Below the pieces are notes generated by a model. It did no database searches. It saw only the letters and a program-made list of their open reading frames with translations, and had not been told where the DNA came from. The translations under genes and the position numbers were made by a program. From Sphingomonas radiodurans (GTDB lineage: Bacteria; Pseudomonadota; Alphaproteobacteria; Sphingomonadales; Sphingomonadaceae), in the NCBI RefSeq assembly GCF_020866845.1, contig NZ_CP086594.1, forward strand, positions 1,054,001 to 1,118,000: DNA of 64,000 nt, in the 5' to 3' direction. Position 1 is the stretch's first letter; each line of letters opens with the position of its first letter. Below are positions 18,261-62,657 of the stretch, one piece after another.

Positions 18261-18777
18261 TCACATTCTCCGAAACCGTCACCGGTTGTTGCGCGGGCTT
18301 ATCGCGGATCAGCAGCGCGCGCACCAGTAGAATGAGCACGCCGATCGTGATCGCCGCATCCGCGACGTTGAAGACGAGGAACGGCCGCCACTCGCCAAAA
18401 TGCAGATCGGCAAAGTCGATCACGTAACCGAGCCGCGCGCGATCGAGAATATTGCCCAGCGCGCCGCCGAGCACCAGCCCGAGCGCAGCCTTGTCAGCCG
18501 GCCGTTCCTCGCGCCACATCCACCACGTCACCGCCGCAGCGATCGCACCCGTCATCGCAACGAGCGCCCACCGAGCGGTGTCACTTTCGGCCCGCAGCAG
18601 CCCCAGGCTCACCCCGACGTTCTGGACAAACCGCAGATCGAAGAACGACACGATCTCGCGCGACGCGCCGAGGAAATTGATCCCGAGCGGCCCGGTGACG
18701 AGCCACTTGGTCAGCTGGTCGAGCACGAACACCGTCACGGCGATGATAAATCCGGTGACGGGAACCGCGCGCTTCAT
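18253..18777 (-). CDS. lspA: lipoprotein signal peptidase II
   Basis: Inner-membrane aspartyl protease of 174 residues that cleaves the signal peptide of prolipoproteins after diacylglyceryl transfer. Four hydrophobic segments are visible. Catalytic aspartates sit in the conserved GGALGNILDRARLGYVIDF and FNVADAAITIG boxes. ATG at 18777 overlaps the ileS stop (ATGA); the longer frame to 18855 lies inside ileS and was not used. The next gene, a lipoprotein, would be one of its substrates. Confidence 0.95.
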   Translation of the reverse strand: MKRAVPVTGFIIAVTVFVLDQLTKWLVTGPLGINFLGASREIVSFFDLRFVQNVGVSLGLLRAESDTARWALVAMTGAIAAAVTWWMWREERPADKAALGLVLGGALGNILDRARLGYVIDFADLHFGEWRPFLVFNVADAAITIGVLILLVRALLIRDKPAQQPVTVSENVNA

Positions 18778-21656
18778 GCGACCACCGCGGCGCAGCGGTC
18801 GCACAAGGCGGTGTCCTCCACCACCTCGGGCAGCAGCCGCCAGCAGCGCCCGCACTTGTGATAATCCGTCCGGCCCACCGACACTTCATCGCCCAGCGAC
18901 ACCTTCGCCACGATGAACGCCTCGGCCAAGTCATCCACCGGCAGCGGCGTTTCGGTCACCGTCACCTCGGCCTCTAGGCTCGACCGCACGATCTTCTCGC
19001 GCCGCAACGGCTCGATCGCCTCGGTCACGCGCTCGCGAAGGCGGCGGACTTCCAGCCAACGCACGCTGACGTCCTCGCCCGCCTCGGCCGGCAGCTCGGG
19101 CCAGTCGAGGAAATGCACCGAGCTATCCTCGCTCGGGAACCGCGCCTGCCACACCTCTTCCGCCGTGAAGACCAGCACCGGCGCCGCCCAGCGCACCAGC
19201 GCATGGAACAACACGTCGAGCATCGTGCGATACGCCCGCCGCTTCACGTCCGTCGGCGCATCGCAATACAGCGAGTCCTTGCGCACATCGAAGAAGAACG
19301 CCGACAGATCCTCGTTCGCGAAGTCGCTCAGCAGTCGGACGTAGCCGTTGAAGTCGAAGTCGGCGATCGCGCGCTTGAGCTGCTGGTCGAGCGTATGGAC
19401 GAGATAGAGCATATAGCGCTCCAGCTCGGGCCATTCGGCCACCGGCAGCTTTTCGGCCTCGTCGAACCCGTCGAGCGCGCCGAGCAGATAGCGGAAGGTG
19501 TTACGTAGCTTGCGATACTGGTCCGCGACGCCGGCAAGGATCTCCTTGCCGATGCGGTGATCCTCGGTGAAGTCGACCGACAGCGCCCACAGCCGCAGGA
19601 TATCCGCGCCGTAATCGCGCATCAGATCGAGCGGATTGATCGTGTTGCCGAGCGACTTGGACATTTTCATGCCCTTGGAGTCCATCGTGAAGCCGTGGGT
19701 CAGCACCGTATCGTACGGCGCCCGCCCGCGCGTCCCGCAGCTTTCCAGCAGCGACGACTGGAACCAGCCACGATGCTGATCCGATCCTTCGAGATACAGG
19801 TCCGCCGGCCAGCTCAGCTCGGGCCAGCGCCCACTTTCGAGCACAAAGGCATGCGTACAGCCCGAATCGAACCACACGTCGAGAATGTCGGTAACGCGCT
19901 CGTAATCGGCCGGATCGCGCTCCTCCCCGAGCAGCGTCGCCGCCGCCTCGTCGCTCCACGCATCGACGCCTTGCTCGCGAAACGCCGCGACGATGCGAGC
20001 GTTCACCTCGGCATCGACAAGCGGCTGACCGCTCCGCCGATCAACGAACAATGCGATCGGCACCCCCCACGCGCGCTGCCGCGAGATCACCCAGTCCGGC
20101 CGCCCATCGACCATCGCCCCGATGCGATTGCGCCCCTTTTCTGGCACAAACCGCGTCGCCGCAATCGCCGCAATCGCTCGATTGCGCAGCGTGTCGGGCT
20201 CAGAAAGCCCCTCCCCTTCAGGGGAGGGGTTGGGGTGGGGGCTGTCCGCGAGCACGCCGCCCGCGATCGGCTTATCCACCGCAATGAACCACTGCGGCGT
20301 ACACCGGAAAATCACCTTCGCCTTGGACCGCCACGAATGCGGATACGAATGCTTGAAGTCGTCGCTCGCGCCGACCAGCGCCCCCGCCTCGCGCAGATCC
20401 GAACAGATCGGCCCATCGGCAGCAACGAACTTCTTGTTGATGACGCTGCCCTGCCCGCCGAGCCAAGCCCAATCATCGCGATACATCCCCGCCGCATCCA
20501 CTGCGAACACCGGCTCGATCCCGTTCGCCTTGCACAGCTCGAAATCGTCCTCGCCATGATCCGGCGCCATATGGACGAGGCCGGTGCCGGCATCAGTGGT
20601 AACGAATTCGCCCGGCAGGAACGGCCGCGGCTTGGCGAAGAACCCGCCCAACTCATGCATCGGATGCCGCGCCACGGCGCCCGCAAGCTTGTCACCGGTC
20701 AGCATCGCCAGCGCTGTCACCGTGCCCGGCGCATCGCCGATCTTCATCACCACCGGATGCCCGATCCGCGCGCCAAAGCTCTCGATCAGATCGCGCGCCA
20801 CCAGCAACGTCCGCGGCTCGGCAACCATGTCGTCGAAGCGCGCGAGGATATATTCAACCTCCGGCCCATAAGCCAAAGCCTGGTTCACCGGGATCGTCCA
20901 CGGTGTCGTGGTCCAGATCACCGCATGCGCGCCGACCAGCTCGGGCGCGAGCGGCGCCTCGACGATCTCGAACGCAACGTCGATCTGCGTCGACACAACG
21001 TCCTCATACTCCACCTCGGCCTCGGCCAACGCGGTCTTCTCGACCGGCGACCACATCACTGGCTTCGCACCGCGATACAGCTGGCCGCTCTCGGCAAACT
21101 TCATCAGCTCGGCGACGATCGTCGCCTCGGCCGCGAAGTCCATCGTCAGATACGGCTTGTCCCAATCTCCGTTGATGCCCAGCCGCTTCAATTGCTCGCG
21201 CTGCGTGTCGACCCAACCCTGCGCGTACGCACGGCATTCGGCGCGAAACTCCGCCGCCGGCACCTCGTCCTTGTTCAGCTTCTTCTTGCGATATTCTTCC
21301 TCGACCTTCCACTCGATCGGCAGGCCGTGGCAATCCCAACCGGGCACGTACGGCGCATTCTTGCCCAGCAGCGTCTGCGTGCGCACCACCATATCCTTCA
21401 GGATATGGTTCAGCGCGTGGCCGATATGCATGTCGCCATTGGCGTATGGCGGGCCATCGTGGAGGATGAACTTTCCGCGATCCGCCCGCTGCTCGCGCAG
21501 CCGCTGATACAGCCCCAGCCGCTGCCAGCGCTCGAGAATGGCGGGCTCCTTCTGCGGCAGCCCCGCCTTCATCGGAAAGTCAGTCTTCGGCAGGAAGACG
21601 GTATCGCGCCAATCTTTGTGATCGGCGGCGCGCGCGGTGGGTGTTTCGTCGGCCAT
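18774..21656 (-). CDS. ileS: isoleucyl-tRNA synthetase
   Basis: Class I synthetase of 960 residues that charges tRNA-Ile and edits valine. Seen: PPYANGDMHIGHAL (HIGH box, near residue 70), the editing-domain threonine-rich region VIWTTTPWTIP, MKMSKSLGNTINP (KMSKS, near residue 635), and a C-terminal zinc finger, CGRCW...CDRCAA. An unusual insertion of about 20 residues, SPHPNPSPEGEGLSEP, lies between the WFIAVDKP and RFVPEKGRNRI blocks and is encoded by a palindromic repeat (20208-20241). The insert is in frame and sits in a loop-like region between conserved blocks, so the enzyme is presumably active. It lies between ribF (25-base gap) and lspA (overlap). Confidence 0.97.
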   Translation of the reverse strand: MADETPTARAADHKDWRDTVFLPKTDFPMKAGLPQKEPAILERWQRLGLYQRLREQRADRGKFILHDGPPYANGDMHIGHALNHILKDMVVRTQTLLGKNAPYVPGWDCHGLPIEWKVEEEYRKKKLNKDEVPAAEFRAECRAYAQGWVDTQREQLKRLGINGDWDKPYLTMDFAAEATIVAELMKFAESGQLYRGAKPVMWSPVEKTALAEAEVEYEDVVSTQIDVAFEIVEAPLAPELVGAHAVIWTTTPWTIPVNQALAYGPEVEYILARFDDMVAEPRTLLVARDLIESFGARIGHPVVMKIGDAPGTVTALAMLTGDKLAGAVARHPMHELGGFFAKPRPFLPGEFVTTDAGTGLVHMAPDHGEDDFELCKANGIEPVFAVDAAGMYRDDWAWLGGQGSVINKKFVAADGPICSDLREAGALVGASDDFKHSYPHSWRSKAKVIFRCTPQWFIAVDKPIAGGVLADSPHPNPSPEGEGLSEPDTLRNRAIAAIAATRFVPEKGRNRIGAMVDGRPDWVISRQRAWGVPIALFVDRRSGQPLVDAEVNARIVAAFREQGVDAWSDEAAATLLGEERDPADYERVTDILDVWFDSGCTHAFVLESGRWPELSWPADLYLEGSDQHRGWFQSSLLESCGTRGRAPYDTVLTHGFTMDSKGMKMSKSLGNTINPLDLMRDYGADILRLWALSVDFTEDHRIGKEILAGVADQYRKLRNTFRYLLGALDGFDEAEKLPVAEWPELERYMLYLVHTLDQQLKRAIADFDFNGYVRLLSDFANEDLSAFFFDVRKDSLYCDAPTDVKRRAYRTMLDVLFHALVRWAAPVLVFTAEEVWQARFPSEDSSVHFLDWPELPAEAGEDVSVRWLEVRRLRERVTEAIEPLRREKIVRSSLEAEVTVTETPLPVDDLAEAFIVAKVSLGDEVSVGRTDYHKCGRCWRLLPEVVEDTALCDRCAAVVA
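20208..20241. repeat. palindromic repeat (family A) inserted in frame inside ileS
   Basis: CCCCTCCCC-TTCA-GGGGAGGGG at 20208-20229 is a perfect 9-base inverted repeat with a TTCA loop, followed by TTGGGGTGGGGG. The same core occurs between genes at 38980, 44589 and 57137. Here it codes on the minus strand for PHPNPSPEGEG within IleRS without breaking the frame. Confidence 0.85.
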
Positions 21657-38979: not shown

Positions 38980-39101
38980 CCCTCTCCCCTTCAGGGGAGA
39001 GGGTTGGGAGAGGGGCAGTCACGAGCTGCCCGCTCTCCGCACACAGCCCCTCTCCCGACTTCGCATCCGCTCGTCTGCCCTCTCCCCTGAAGGAGAGAGG
39101 G
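38980..39101. repeat. composite palindromic repeat (family A) between serC and serA
   Basis: Two inverted copies of the core: CCCTCTCCCC-TTCA-GGGGAGAGGG at 38980-39003 and its reverse form at 39078-39101 (TGAA loop). The segment between also pairs (GGGAGAGGGGC with GCCCCTCTCCC), so the whole unit could fold as one long hairpin. It ends about 15 bases before serA, close to the GGAGA used as its ribosome binding site. Confidence 0.8.
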
Positions 39102-40861: not shown

Positions 40862-41857
40862 TTGAGTGCGTTGATCTTTGCCGGGGCGCTGCTGTTCTCG
40901 CCCCCGCCGATTGCAGCGACAGATGCCGTGATGCCGATGGCGGCACCGCCGCTTGTCGCAACGACGGTCGAAGCCTTCACCCCTGGCGACGCCGCGCCGA
41001 CCGTGGCACCAGCCGGCGTCATTGCCCCGCAGACCGCGCCAGCGCCCGAAACGCCAGAGTCCGCGCAACGCGACATCGTTGTCACCGGCCGGAGCGCCTG
41101 GGAAGCACCCGATCCGTTCGCCGACATCAACACCAAGGCGTTCGAAGCGACGATGGCAGTCGACTCGGCGATCATCGGCCCGATCGCAATGGTCTACAAG
41201 GATGTGATCCCCAAGCCGATCCGCGATGGCGCGCACAACTTCCTGTACAATTTGCGCGAGCCCGTCGTCTTCCTGAACTTCGTCCTGCAGCTCAAGATCG
41301 GCCGCGCACTCGAAACCGTCGGGCGGTTCGCGATCAACACCACCGTTGGCGTCGCCGGCCTGTTCGACATGGCCAAGCGCAAGCCGTTCAAGTGGAGGCG
41401 CCGCAGCAACGGCTTTGCCAACACCCTCGGCTTCTACGGCATCAAGACCGGCCCGTTCATGTTCCTGCCGATCGTCGGCCCGACCACGCCGCGCGACCTG
41501 ATCGGCGGCGCACTCGACCGCTTGCTGTTCCCGTTCGTCTACGGCTCGCGCATCACCAAGCCTGAGTTTGCGATCCCGTTCGGCGTGATCGGCATGCTCG
41601 ATCACCGCGCCGAGTTCGATGATACGCAACGCCAGTTGCACGATGGCCAGGCCGATCCCTACGCCCGCTCGCGCGATTTCTACCTGCAACGCCGCCAGAA
41701 CGAGATCGACGAGCTGAAAGGCAAGGCGCCGAAGAATTCGAGCGGCATGTCCGAAGCTCCCACCGCGCCGATCACCGTGCGCGAACGCTCCGGCACGACG
41801 CTGGAGGATCCCGCGCCAATCCCCACGCCCCCAGTCGCTACAGTGCCGCAGCAATAG
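40862..41857 (+). CDS. MlaA-family (VacJ) phospholipid transport protein
   Basis: A 331-residue member of the MlaA family, which removes misplaced phospholipids from the outer leaflet of the outer membrane. Family segments: DPFADINTKAFEATMAVD near residue 83, NFLYNLREPVVFLNFVLQLK, GRFAINTTVGVAGLFDMAK and GFANTLGFYGIKTGPFMFLPIVGPTTPRD. The start is TTG at 40862 after GGGGAGAAG. The signal peptide lacks a lipobox cysteine, unlike E. coli MlaA, and is followed by a long Pro/Ala-rich linker. The C-terminus also carries a low-complexity tail. Confidence 0.85.
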   Translation: MSALIFAGALLFSPPPIAATDAVMPMAAPPLVATTVEAFTPGDAAPTVAPAGVIAPQTAPAPETPESAQRDIVVTGRSAWEAPDPFADINTKAFEATMAVDSAIIGPIAMVYKDVIPKPIRDGAHNFLYNLREPVVFLNFVLQLKIGRALETVGRFAINTTVGVAGLFDMAKRKPFKWRRRSNGFANTLGFYGIKTGPFMFLPIVGPTTPRDLIGGALDRLLFPFVYGSRITKPEFAIPFGVIGMLDHRAEFDDTQRQLHDGQADPYARSRDFYLQRRQNEIDELKGKAPKNSSGMSEAPTAPITVRERSGTTLEDPAPIPTPPVATVPQQ

Positions 41858-41862
41858 CCCTC

Positions 41863-41958
41863 CGTCATGCCGGGCTCGTCCCGGCATCCACGGCGCAGCA
41901 AGCGCATAAGCCGTAGAACGCGTCGCACGGTGGACACCGGGACAAGCCCGGTGTGACG
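41863..41958. repeat. palindromic repeat (family B) between mlaA-like gene and hisZ
   Basis: The left arm CGTCATGCCGGGCTCGTCCC plus GGCATCCA, and the right arm an inverted counterpart (TGGACACCGGGACAAGCCCG plus GTGTGACG), bracket a variable centre. A further fragment, TTCATCCCGAGCGAAGTCGA at 41976-41995, belongs to another common repeat type. Confidence 0.75.
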
Positions 41959-42072
41959 CAGGAGCCGAAACCCCGTTCATCCCGAGCGAAGTCGAAGGAC
42001 ATGCAACTCCAGCAACTGCCCCACCATCGTCCGCCTTCCCCCGGCGCACCCGCGCCGTTATGCGCCCCGCAC

Positions 42073-44588: not shown

Positions 44589-44666
44589 CCCCTCCCCTTC
44601 AGGGGAGGGGAGAAGATTGCGCATCTTCCCAAATCCTCTACCCCTCCCCCAAAATACGGGAGAGGC
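44589..44666. repeat. palindromic repeat (family A) between purA and atuA-like gene
   Basis: CCCCTCCCC-TTCA-GGGGAGGGG at 44589-44610 is identical to the core inside ileS. A degenerate second half (CCCCTCCCCC...GGGAGAGG) follows, and its GGGAGAGG end serves as the ribosome binding site of the next gene. Confidence 0.8.
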
Positions 44667-48000: not shown

Positions 48001-48085
48001 CGTCACCCCGGCCTTGAGCCGGGGTCCCGCTTCTTCTTCGATGGTCGAGAAGGCAGCGGGACCCCGGATCAAGCCCGGGATGACG
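48001..48085. repeat. palindromic repeat (family C) between lptB and rpoN
   Basis: CGTCACCCCGGCCTTGAGCC plus GGGGTCCCGC at the left, and GCGGGACCCCGGATCAAGCC plus CGGGATGACG at the right, are inverted to each other around a variable centre. A close relative lies at 62520-62603. Confidence 0.75.
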
Positions 48086-52100: not shown

Positions 52101-52997
52101 ATGCCCCCCGAAATGACCGAAACCAAAGTTCCGAGCCGCGTCTTTGCCGGCGCGCGAGAGGATGCCGCGTCCGCCAAGGCGGGCATCTCCACCCCACAAA
52201 CCGAAAATCCCGCCTACCGCCTCGCCTTCCAGGACATGGATTTCCTGCTGCGCGAGGATCTGCGCCCGGTCCGCTTCCAACTAGAATTGCTGAAGCCCGA
52301 GCTGCTGCTCGACGAAGCGCACATCGGCTCCACCTTCGTCTTCTACGGCTCGGCGCGCATCCCCGAACCCGCCAAGGCGCAGGCAATGCTCGACATGGCC
52401 GATGAGGAACATCGCCCGGTGGCGGAGCGGCTCGTCGCCAAGTCGCGATATTACGAGATGGCGCGCGAGCTTGCCCGGCTCGCCAGCAATTTCCCGCGCG
52501 ACGAAACCGGCAAGCGGCATTTCGTCGTCTGCTCGGGCGGCGGCCCGTCGATCATGGAAGCGGCGAACCGCGGCGCGGCGGACGTCCACGCCGAATCGAT
52601 CGGGCTCAACATCGTCCTGCCACACGAGCAGGCGCCCAATCCCTATGTCACGCCGTCGCTCAGCATGCAGTTCCACTATTTCGCGCTGCGCAAGATGCAC
52701 TTCCTGCTGCGCGCCCGTGCGCTCGCCGCCTTCCCCGGCGGGTTCGGCACGTTCGACGAACTGTTCGAGCTGCTGACGCTGATCCAGACCGGCAAGGTCG
52801 CGCCGATCCCGGTGCTGCTGTTCGGCCGTGACTTTTGGGAACGCGCAATCAACTTCGACGTGCTGGTCGAGGAAGGCGTAATCTCGCAGCGCGATCTCGA
52901 CATCTTCACCTATGTCGAAACCGCCGCGGAAGGCTGGGCTGTCGTGCAGCGCTTCTACCAGGAACGCGGGCAGAAGAACCCGACCCCACCCGAATAA
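52101..52997 (+). CDS. LOG-family protein (TIGR00730-type nucleoside 5'-monophosphate phosphoribohydrolase)
   Basis: A 298-residue Rossmann-fold protein with an N-terminal extension of about 80 residues. The family signature PGGFGTFDELFELLTLIQTG appears near residue 212, and VVCSGGGPSIMEAANRGA near residue 143. LOG proteins release the base from AMP or cytokinin ribotides; annotation as lysine decarboxylase is historical. Two starts, 52101 and 52113, are possible. A pair of palindromic repeats follows the gene. Confidence 0.85.
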   Translation: MPPEMTETKVPSRVFAGAREDAASAKAGISTPQTENPAYRLAFQDMDFLLREDLRPVRFQLELLKPELLLDEAHIGSTFVFYGSARIPEPAKAQAMLDMADEEHRPVAERLVAKSRYYEMARELARLASNFPRDETGKRHFVVCSGGGPSIMEAANRGAADVHAESIGLNIVLPHEQAPNPYVTPSLSMQFHYFALRKMHFLLRARALAAFPGGFGTFDELFELLTLIQTGKVAPIPVLLFGRDFWERAINFDVLVEEGVISQRDLDIFTYVETAAEGWAVVQRFYQERGQKNPTPPE

Positions 52998-53002
52998 CCC
53001 CG

Positions 53003-53164
53003 CGTCATGCCGGGCTCGTCCCGGCATCCACGGTTCGTCAGGTGCTTACCGTATCAAGCGCGTTACTTCGTCATGCCGGGCTCGTCCCGGCATCCACCTG
53101 TCAGCGCGCGCCGCGCTAGTAGGATTGGCGGAACCGTGGATGCCGGGACAAGCCCGGCATGACG
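53003..53164. repeat. tandem/inverted palindromic repeats (family B)
   Basis: Two direct copies of CGTCATGCCGGGCTCGTCCC plus GGCATCCAC (from 53003 and 53069) and one inverted copy (CCGTGGATGCCGGGACAAGC plus CCGGCATGACGG, ending 53164). It lies between the LOG gene and the convergent cytochrome c gene. Confidence 0.8.
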
Positions 53165-53192
53165 GAAGTACCGTCGAATCCTAAACCCTAAA

Positions 53193-57136: not shown

Positions 57137-57251
57137 CCCTCTCCCCTTCAGGGGAGAGGGTGGCCGAGCCAAAGGCGAGGTCGGGAGAGGGGCAGTACGA
57201 AGCCGGGTCCACTGCCCCTCTCCCCGACCCTCTCCCCTGAAGGGGAGAGGG
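57137..57251. repeat. composite palindromic repeat (family A) after ptrB
   Basis: CCCTCTCCCC-TTCA-GGGGAGAGGG (57137-57160) and its inverted form with TGAA loop (57228-57251) flank a middle that also pairs (GGGAGAGGGGCAGT with ACTGCCCCTCTCCC). Same architecture as 38980-39101. It fills the gap between the convergent ptrB and nudC genes. Confidence 0.85.
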
Positions 57252-62508: not shown

Positions 62509-62519
62509 CACCCTCCCCT

Positions 62520-62603
62520 CGTCACCCCGGGCTTGACCCGGGGTCCCGCTTCTTTACCACCGTCGCTCGATCAGCGGGACCCCGCATCAAGTCCGGGGTG
62601 ACG
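62520..62603. repeat. palindromic repeat (family C) upstream of smc
   Basis: CGTCACCCCGGGCTTGACCC plus GGGGTCCCGC at the left and GCGGGACCCCGCATCAAGTC plus CGGGGTGACG at the right, inverted around a short variable centre; close relative of 48001-48085. Confidence 0.75.
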
Positions 62604-62657
62604 GAGTAACGGAGGGGCCTTGCGTCCCTCTGCAGGCCGCGCTCAACTCCATCCAAC

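Follow-up and report, generated by a model that had tools for sequence, protein, structure and literature searches.

A palindromic insert in the ileS gene of Sphingomonas radiodurans and its relation to DUF559-gene elements

Among the described systems that pair an enzyme with dispersed palindromes, the closest to the one considered here is that of the RAYTs, which the relevant passages of PMC8049555 present as single-copy, vertically inherited genes that still replicate REPINs, while those of PMC8266576 present the TnpAREP enzymes as having co-evolved with their cognate repetitive extragenic palindromes (REPs). PMC3733652 describes REPs of the GTAG and CGTC types inside genes, those for tRNA synthetases in the sphingomonads S. 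alaskensis and E. litoralis among them, and the part of it that treats the CGTC type reports no dedicated transposase for that type. Here we consider a palindromic repeat found in frame inside ileS, the isoleucyl-tRNA synthetase (IleRS) gene, in a stretch of 64,000 nucleotides from Sphingomonas radiodurans (the window; contig NZ_CP086594.1, positions 1,054,001 to 1,118,000), together with a DUF559 gene that lies between inverted palindromes elsewhere in the same genome. We regard it as probable that what lies in ileS is an end of such a DUF559 palindromic element and that the DUF559 protein, a putative nuclease, spreads palindromes in trans.

Set beside the RAYT/REPIN system (REPtron), as outlined in the sections of PMC8049555 and PMC8266576 that bear on it, the arrangement is similar in that a mostly fixed, inherited enzyme gene has palindrome borders, inverted pairs are dispersed in trans and copy number is tied to the enzyme gene. 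The enzyme, however, is a DUF559 protein with a predicted Vsr/EDxHD-like fold and not an HUH tyrosine transposase, and several DUF559 genes per genome are common here. In-frame entry into coding genes, tRNA synthetases included, is shared with the Rickettsia palindromic elements and with the CGTC and GTAG REPs (as far as the relevant part of PMC3733652 goes), although the sequence and tag of these are unlike the ileS repeat. The ileS-type palindrome has no GTAG tag, its outer flanks reading AAG or CT, and no CGTC tag at its ends. These elements are precedents for in-frame insertion and form a different family. The Vsr and EDxHD homing endonucleases resemble DUF559 in predicted fold and in conserved acidic and histidine residues, but the accounts on which we draw describe them as mismatch-repair or intron/intein homing enzymes, with no mention of a tie to palindromic repeats. 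We found no link between DUF559 and palindromic repeats in the published literature.

An element end inside ileS

The insert makes up 20 codons (60 nt) of a 960-codon frame, as judged by comparison with empty homologues such as FIAVDKPIEGGDTLRQKA, and contains the palindrome CCCCTCCCCTTCAGGGGAGGGG (Table 1), which bears out the sequence-only reading that a palindromic repeat lies in frame within this gene. As a single strand, the stretch 20195-20255 folds at -33.3 kcal/mol (z -1.78). Mapped on 8C9E, the solved IleRS structure that matches best, query residue 460 corresponds to chain residue 415 and query residue 491 to 419, so that the entire insert falls within a very short loop, known in IleRS to come after the editing domain. 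Read from the sequence, only one of the six palindrome frames meets a TGA, and entry into genes should therefore often be survivable; a tolerance of the repeat as predicted peptide, like that of the Rickettsia elements, had been proposed and is supported by the in-frame insert.

Forty-seven nucleotides of the insert are identical to one end of a DUF559 element of the same genome (L035), which is located between sufB and sufC. The open frame of L035 reads through the palindrome and ends in ..VVADSPHPNPSPEGEGLER; its IleRS counterpart is VLADSPHPNPSPEGEGLSEP and the peptide in common is ADSPHPNPSPEGEGL. Given this identity and the matching peptide end, the insert appears to be one end of a DUF559-gene palindromic element, a conclusion that goes beyond the sequence-only reading. 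In this genome (G000; 3.68 Mb, 1 contig) every one of the six short DUF559 genes sits between inverted palindromes; a seventh match (L037), inside a 954-codon frame, has no palindrome in the stretch viewed and was left unscored. Against the curated cut-off of 20.6 bits for PF04480 (DUF559), L035 scores 98.2 bits and L031 125 bits.

At up to three mismatches the palindrome gives eight strand matches at six places in the window, with a mean of 0.01 and a maximum of 1 in 100 shuffles. Three other intergenic places had been claimed to hold the same core, and these places exist; the identical core, however, is found at only one of them, the other two being inverted pairs of a CCTCTCC..GGAGAGG variant (copies at 38981, 39079, 57138 and 57229, the second with one more change). 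Across the genome the combined pattern CYCTCCCCTTCAGGGGAGRG occurs 33 times exactly and, by our count of the matches listed, at 45 places when up to two mismatches are allowed, compared with none for a reversed-pattern control, so the repeat is far from absent outside ileS. Nine copies have the ileS form, and the ileS-type palindrome occurs as inverted +/- pairs.

Two further families were seen alongside. A CGTC-type inverted repeat (CGTCATGCCGGGCTCGTCCCGGCAT..., CGTCACCCCGG...) lies in the window at 41853-41967, 48001-48085, 52993-53173 and 62518-62612; its TPAQAGV/TPAFAGV peptides recur at the ileS site in other species, and it has no DUF559 link. The second is CCCCTCCCGCTTGCGGGAGGGG, which has 28 copies in the genome, none of them at the border of one of the six short DUF559 genes.

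Table 1. Positions in the window of ileS, its insert and related palindromes
Feature	Position	Strand	Basis or context
ileS	18774..21656	-	open frame; Pfam tRNA-synt_1 PF00133 and PF08264
In-frame insert V468-P487 (VLADSPHPNPSPEGEGLSEP)	20196..20255	-	missing in empty homologues
47-nt exact match to L035 end, 3' side of its DUF559 gene	20205..20251	+	confirmed; no longer exact match
Hairpin palindrome	20208..20229	no strand	pattern search; fold
Inverted pair, CCCTCTCCCC variant	38980..39101	no strand	adjoins D-3-phosphoglycerate dehydrogenase-like gene (Pfam); fold z -7.19
Single copy, core as in ileS	44589..44610	no strand	between adenylosuccinate synthetase gene and AtuA-family gene (Pfam)
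Inverted pair, CCCTCTCCCC variant	57137..57251	no strand	between prolyl oligopeptidase-type and NUDIX genes (Pfam); fold z -10.64

The IleRS loop as an insertion site

Among the 120 IleRS proteins listed of 7997 scored, classed by peptide motifs chosen by eye, this spot holds DUF559-type palindrome peptides in 34, CGTC-type peptides in 5, a third repeat type in 11 and other long inserts in 17, the remaining 53 being short. Since the nearest homologues are empty or filled differently, the insert is young and lineage-specific rather than an ancient feature conserved across the order. For the DNA of this site, 79 loci were collected, and three of them, in which no flanking motif could be located, were set aside; DUF559-element ends are matched at 33 bits or more by 14 of the 76 left, compared with 1 of 453 control segments, and that lone control is a palindrome insert in the ileS gene of L272. 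By our grouping the matched ends span at least seven palindrome families. On these comparisons the loop is a recurrent hotspot for several of them, which the sequence-only reading had not proposed, and the insert here is the right half only of a pair found whole in P0033 and L275.

It could be argued that what we read as an insert is simply a long-standing variable stretch of IleRS that happens to look like the repeat: sphingomonads vary at this loop, and many of its long forms, the 17 just mentioned, hold no recognised repeat. This is scarcely credible in view of the identity at all 47 of 47 nucleotides to an element of the same genome, the excess of hotspot DNAs over controls and the different inserts carried by the homologues P0001-P0004, at 90-92% identity; we consider it refuted by these comparisons, unless records are misassembled.

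Other features of IleRS genes were recorded in passing. The third repeat type (STSLxTNG ... PFASSxVE peptides) occurs in P0001, P0003, P0087, P0089 and others. The insert in L272 (G281) is a second ileS-type palindrome insert about 600 nt from the hotspot, within one ileS gene. In several family genomes the IleRS alignments break again at query residues ~275-340, which may mark a further site of frequent insertion, this one within the editing domain, and the open frames reach 1368 codons.

DUF559 genes, their borders and their predicted fold

Inverted hairpins border DUF559 genes well beyond this genome. In a first set, of which 29 members were the top scorers of the family list, the flanks of all 35 loci exceeded all 135 shifted windows; in a second, 33 of 40 loci hand-picked from the list exceeded the shuffle maximum of 15, as did 20 of 28 loci in a phylum sample (19 of 26 outside the family), where 1 of 56 shifted controls was above 15. 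Pooled, 83 of 100 loci have such borders, leaving out the duplicates L177 and L179, the broken L184 and L037. For this DUF559 subfamily, 80 named loci were kept of 384 relatives, and 74 of the 77 long enough to score are bordered; inverted borders were found in 0 of 143 shifted controls. The terminal inverted repeats by which insertion sequences and miniature inverted-repeat transposable elements are recognised are thus present on DUF559 elements. L031-type genes are located at trpB-trpA in six genera, and DUF559 matches, many of them weak, occur in 46 of the 150 genomes of the phylum sample. The matches in G168, G207, G188 and G172 are split or hold an in-frame stop, as expected for decaying copies. 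Two Sphingomonas loci, L251 and L253, from genomes that are locally about 95% identical, have different repeat families at one intergenic place.

The predicted DUF559 model (mean predicted local distance difference test score 84.4), compared with 3HRL, 3R3P and 1CW0, has a Vsr/EDxHD-like fold, its nearest relatives being NGO0050 (3HRL), the EDxHD homing endonuclease I-Bth0305I and Vsr, and it shares the conserved acidic and histidine residues of the latter enzymes. We accordingly predict that the protein is a nuclease of the Vsr/EDxHD kind. VsrA of Caulobacter belongs to DUF559, going by the relevant part of PMC12907096, and the corresponding part of PMC9403480 assigns the DUF559 gene of a cyanobacterial intein to the EDxHD family. 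This assignment, the closeness to I-Bth0305I and the fixed home loci would also suit an endonuclease of the homing type, which maintains its own locus, with the palindromes acting as its recognition sites or as transcription terminators and being dispersed by recombination or gene conversion. We think this improbable, as copies are dispersed at many unrelated places and the one inside ileS shares little flank, which homing leaves unexplained.

How the palindromes may spread

Across 119 family genomes, hairpin copies rise with the number of DUF559 genes (Spearman 0.62). At least five copies of the ileS palindrome occur in 10 of the 16 genomes with an L035-type gene, taking our own threshold of 100 bits, compared with 8 of the 103 without. 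Among these eight exceptions, G038, G072 and G076 have a DUF559 gene bordered by exactly the ileS palindrome, and in G072 the tail of the bordering palindrome matches that of a dispersed pair. The three L035-type genomes that do not have the ileS palindrome (G023, G089 and G093) have DUF559 genes bordered by variants, which led to the prediction, stated beforehand, that a variant palindrome should be present where it borders DUF559. All five genomes with a DUF559 gene bordered by the variant proved to contain it, and together they have 174 of its 199 copies (G066 56, G076 52, G108 57, G089 6 and G093 3, the last with just one copy beyond its own borders); nine other genomes share 25 copies, nine at most in any one, and 105 have none. 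G044, outside the predicted set, also has the variant at a DUF559 gene.

Another transposase might instead mobilise the palindromes, DUF559 genes being passengers or preferential inserters between them, and several genomes with many copies and no bordering DUF559, as well as the CGTC-type and other repeats that reach the ileS site with no DUF559 tie, are what this would lead one to expect. We hold it to be rather unlikely, because borders recur at non-homologous loci (15 of the 17 named loci away from suf), the 17 family genomes that have no DUF559 hold just 0-3 hairpin copies each, and the variant-palindrome prediction came true. In addition, a search for RAYTs (Y1 transposase, PF01797) gave no match in G000, with 5 of 14 control genomes positive; other transposase families were not searched.

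Several observations weigh against spreading by the DUF559 protein. No palindrome movement was observed; of the mobility once proposed, the dispersal within the genome and the lineage specificity stand. A clear inverted border is absent at 17 of the 100 pooled loci, 63 of the 80 named loci, adjoining sufB or sufC, represent a single locus by descent, and by eye the outer flanks listed show no evident target-site duplication, with no clean close empty site found to set beside them. The genome counts of hairpins and ileS palindromes include border copies, and none of the genome statistics takes phylogeny into account. G027, G042 and G063 hold 12-46 ileS-type palindromes, none of which borders any of their three DUF559 genes exactly; G104 has five copies and an exact border at neither of the two checked of its four DUF559 genes, and G083 has five copies and no DUF559.

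A second prediction, likewise stated beforehand but with another palindrome family, was borne out only weakly: of the eight genomes in which it was expected, all but one have copies outside the borders (2, 1, 1, 8, 0, 28, 14 and 3), giving p 0.001 when all 111 others serve as the comparison but 0.067 when only the 48 others that were sampled do, and the family is carried by 35 of those 111, with 24-32 copies each in the unpredicted G000, G081, G103 and G111. The cognate gene is therefore not always visible where copies exist; the gene may have been lost or not sampled, or the specificity may be looser. Finally, pairs mixing a 5'-type and a 3'-type end, which would fit internal deletions of a full element, make up 10 of the 14 classifiable among 22 hand-chosen pairs, a proportion that is not significant (p 0.09). 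Because of this result and the weak second prediction, we place reduced confidence both in spreading by the DUF559 protein and in the broader view set out below.

The 47-nt identity, the DUF559 borders, the association over the genomes compared and an occupation of the ileS site that is lineage-specific are directly observed, and it is from these that we infer movement driven by a nuclease. The putative DUF559 nuclease would nick or cut DNA at or beside a folded palindrome, and repair or copying would then leave a pair, or a single end, somewhere else. Most copies landing in genes would be purged, and the IleRS loop after the editing domain may tolerate them because five of the six palindrome frames are stop-free. 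The nuclease gene mostly stays at its home locus (sufB-sufC or trpB-trpA), inherited like RAYT genes, while the palindromes would move.

Short palindromes crowd many bacterial genomes, and no mover is known for families that lack a RAYT link, as is stated for CGTC REPs in the part of PMC3733652 concerned with them. Here three things tie a small, common gene of unassigned function to such palindromes: its borders, the copy number and one prediction that held. The balance tips only slightly towards a broader view, in which DUF559 proteins would be a widespread, unrecognised class of repeat-spreading nucleases, REPtron-like, each with its own hairpin palindromes copied around proteobacterial chromosomes, and peptides would have been written repeatedly into one IleRS loop. 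Several unrelated repeats have entered that loop, and nature has thereby left a record of the changes that an essential core enzyme can bear.
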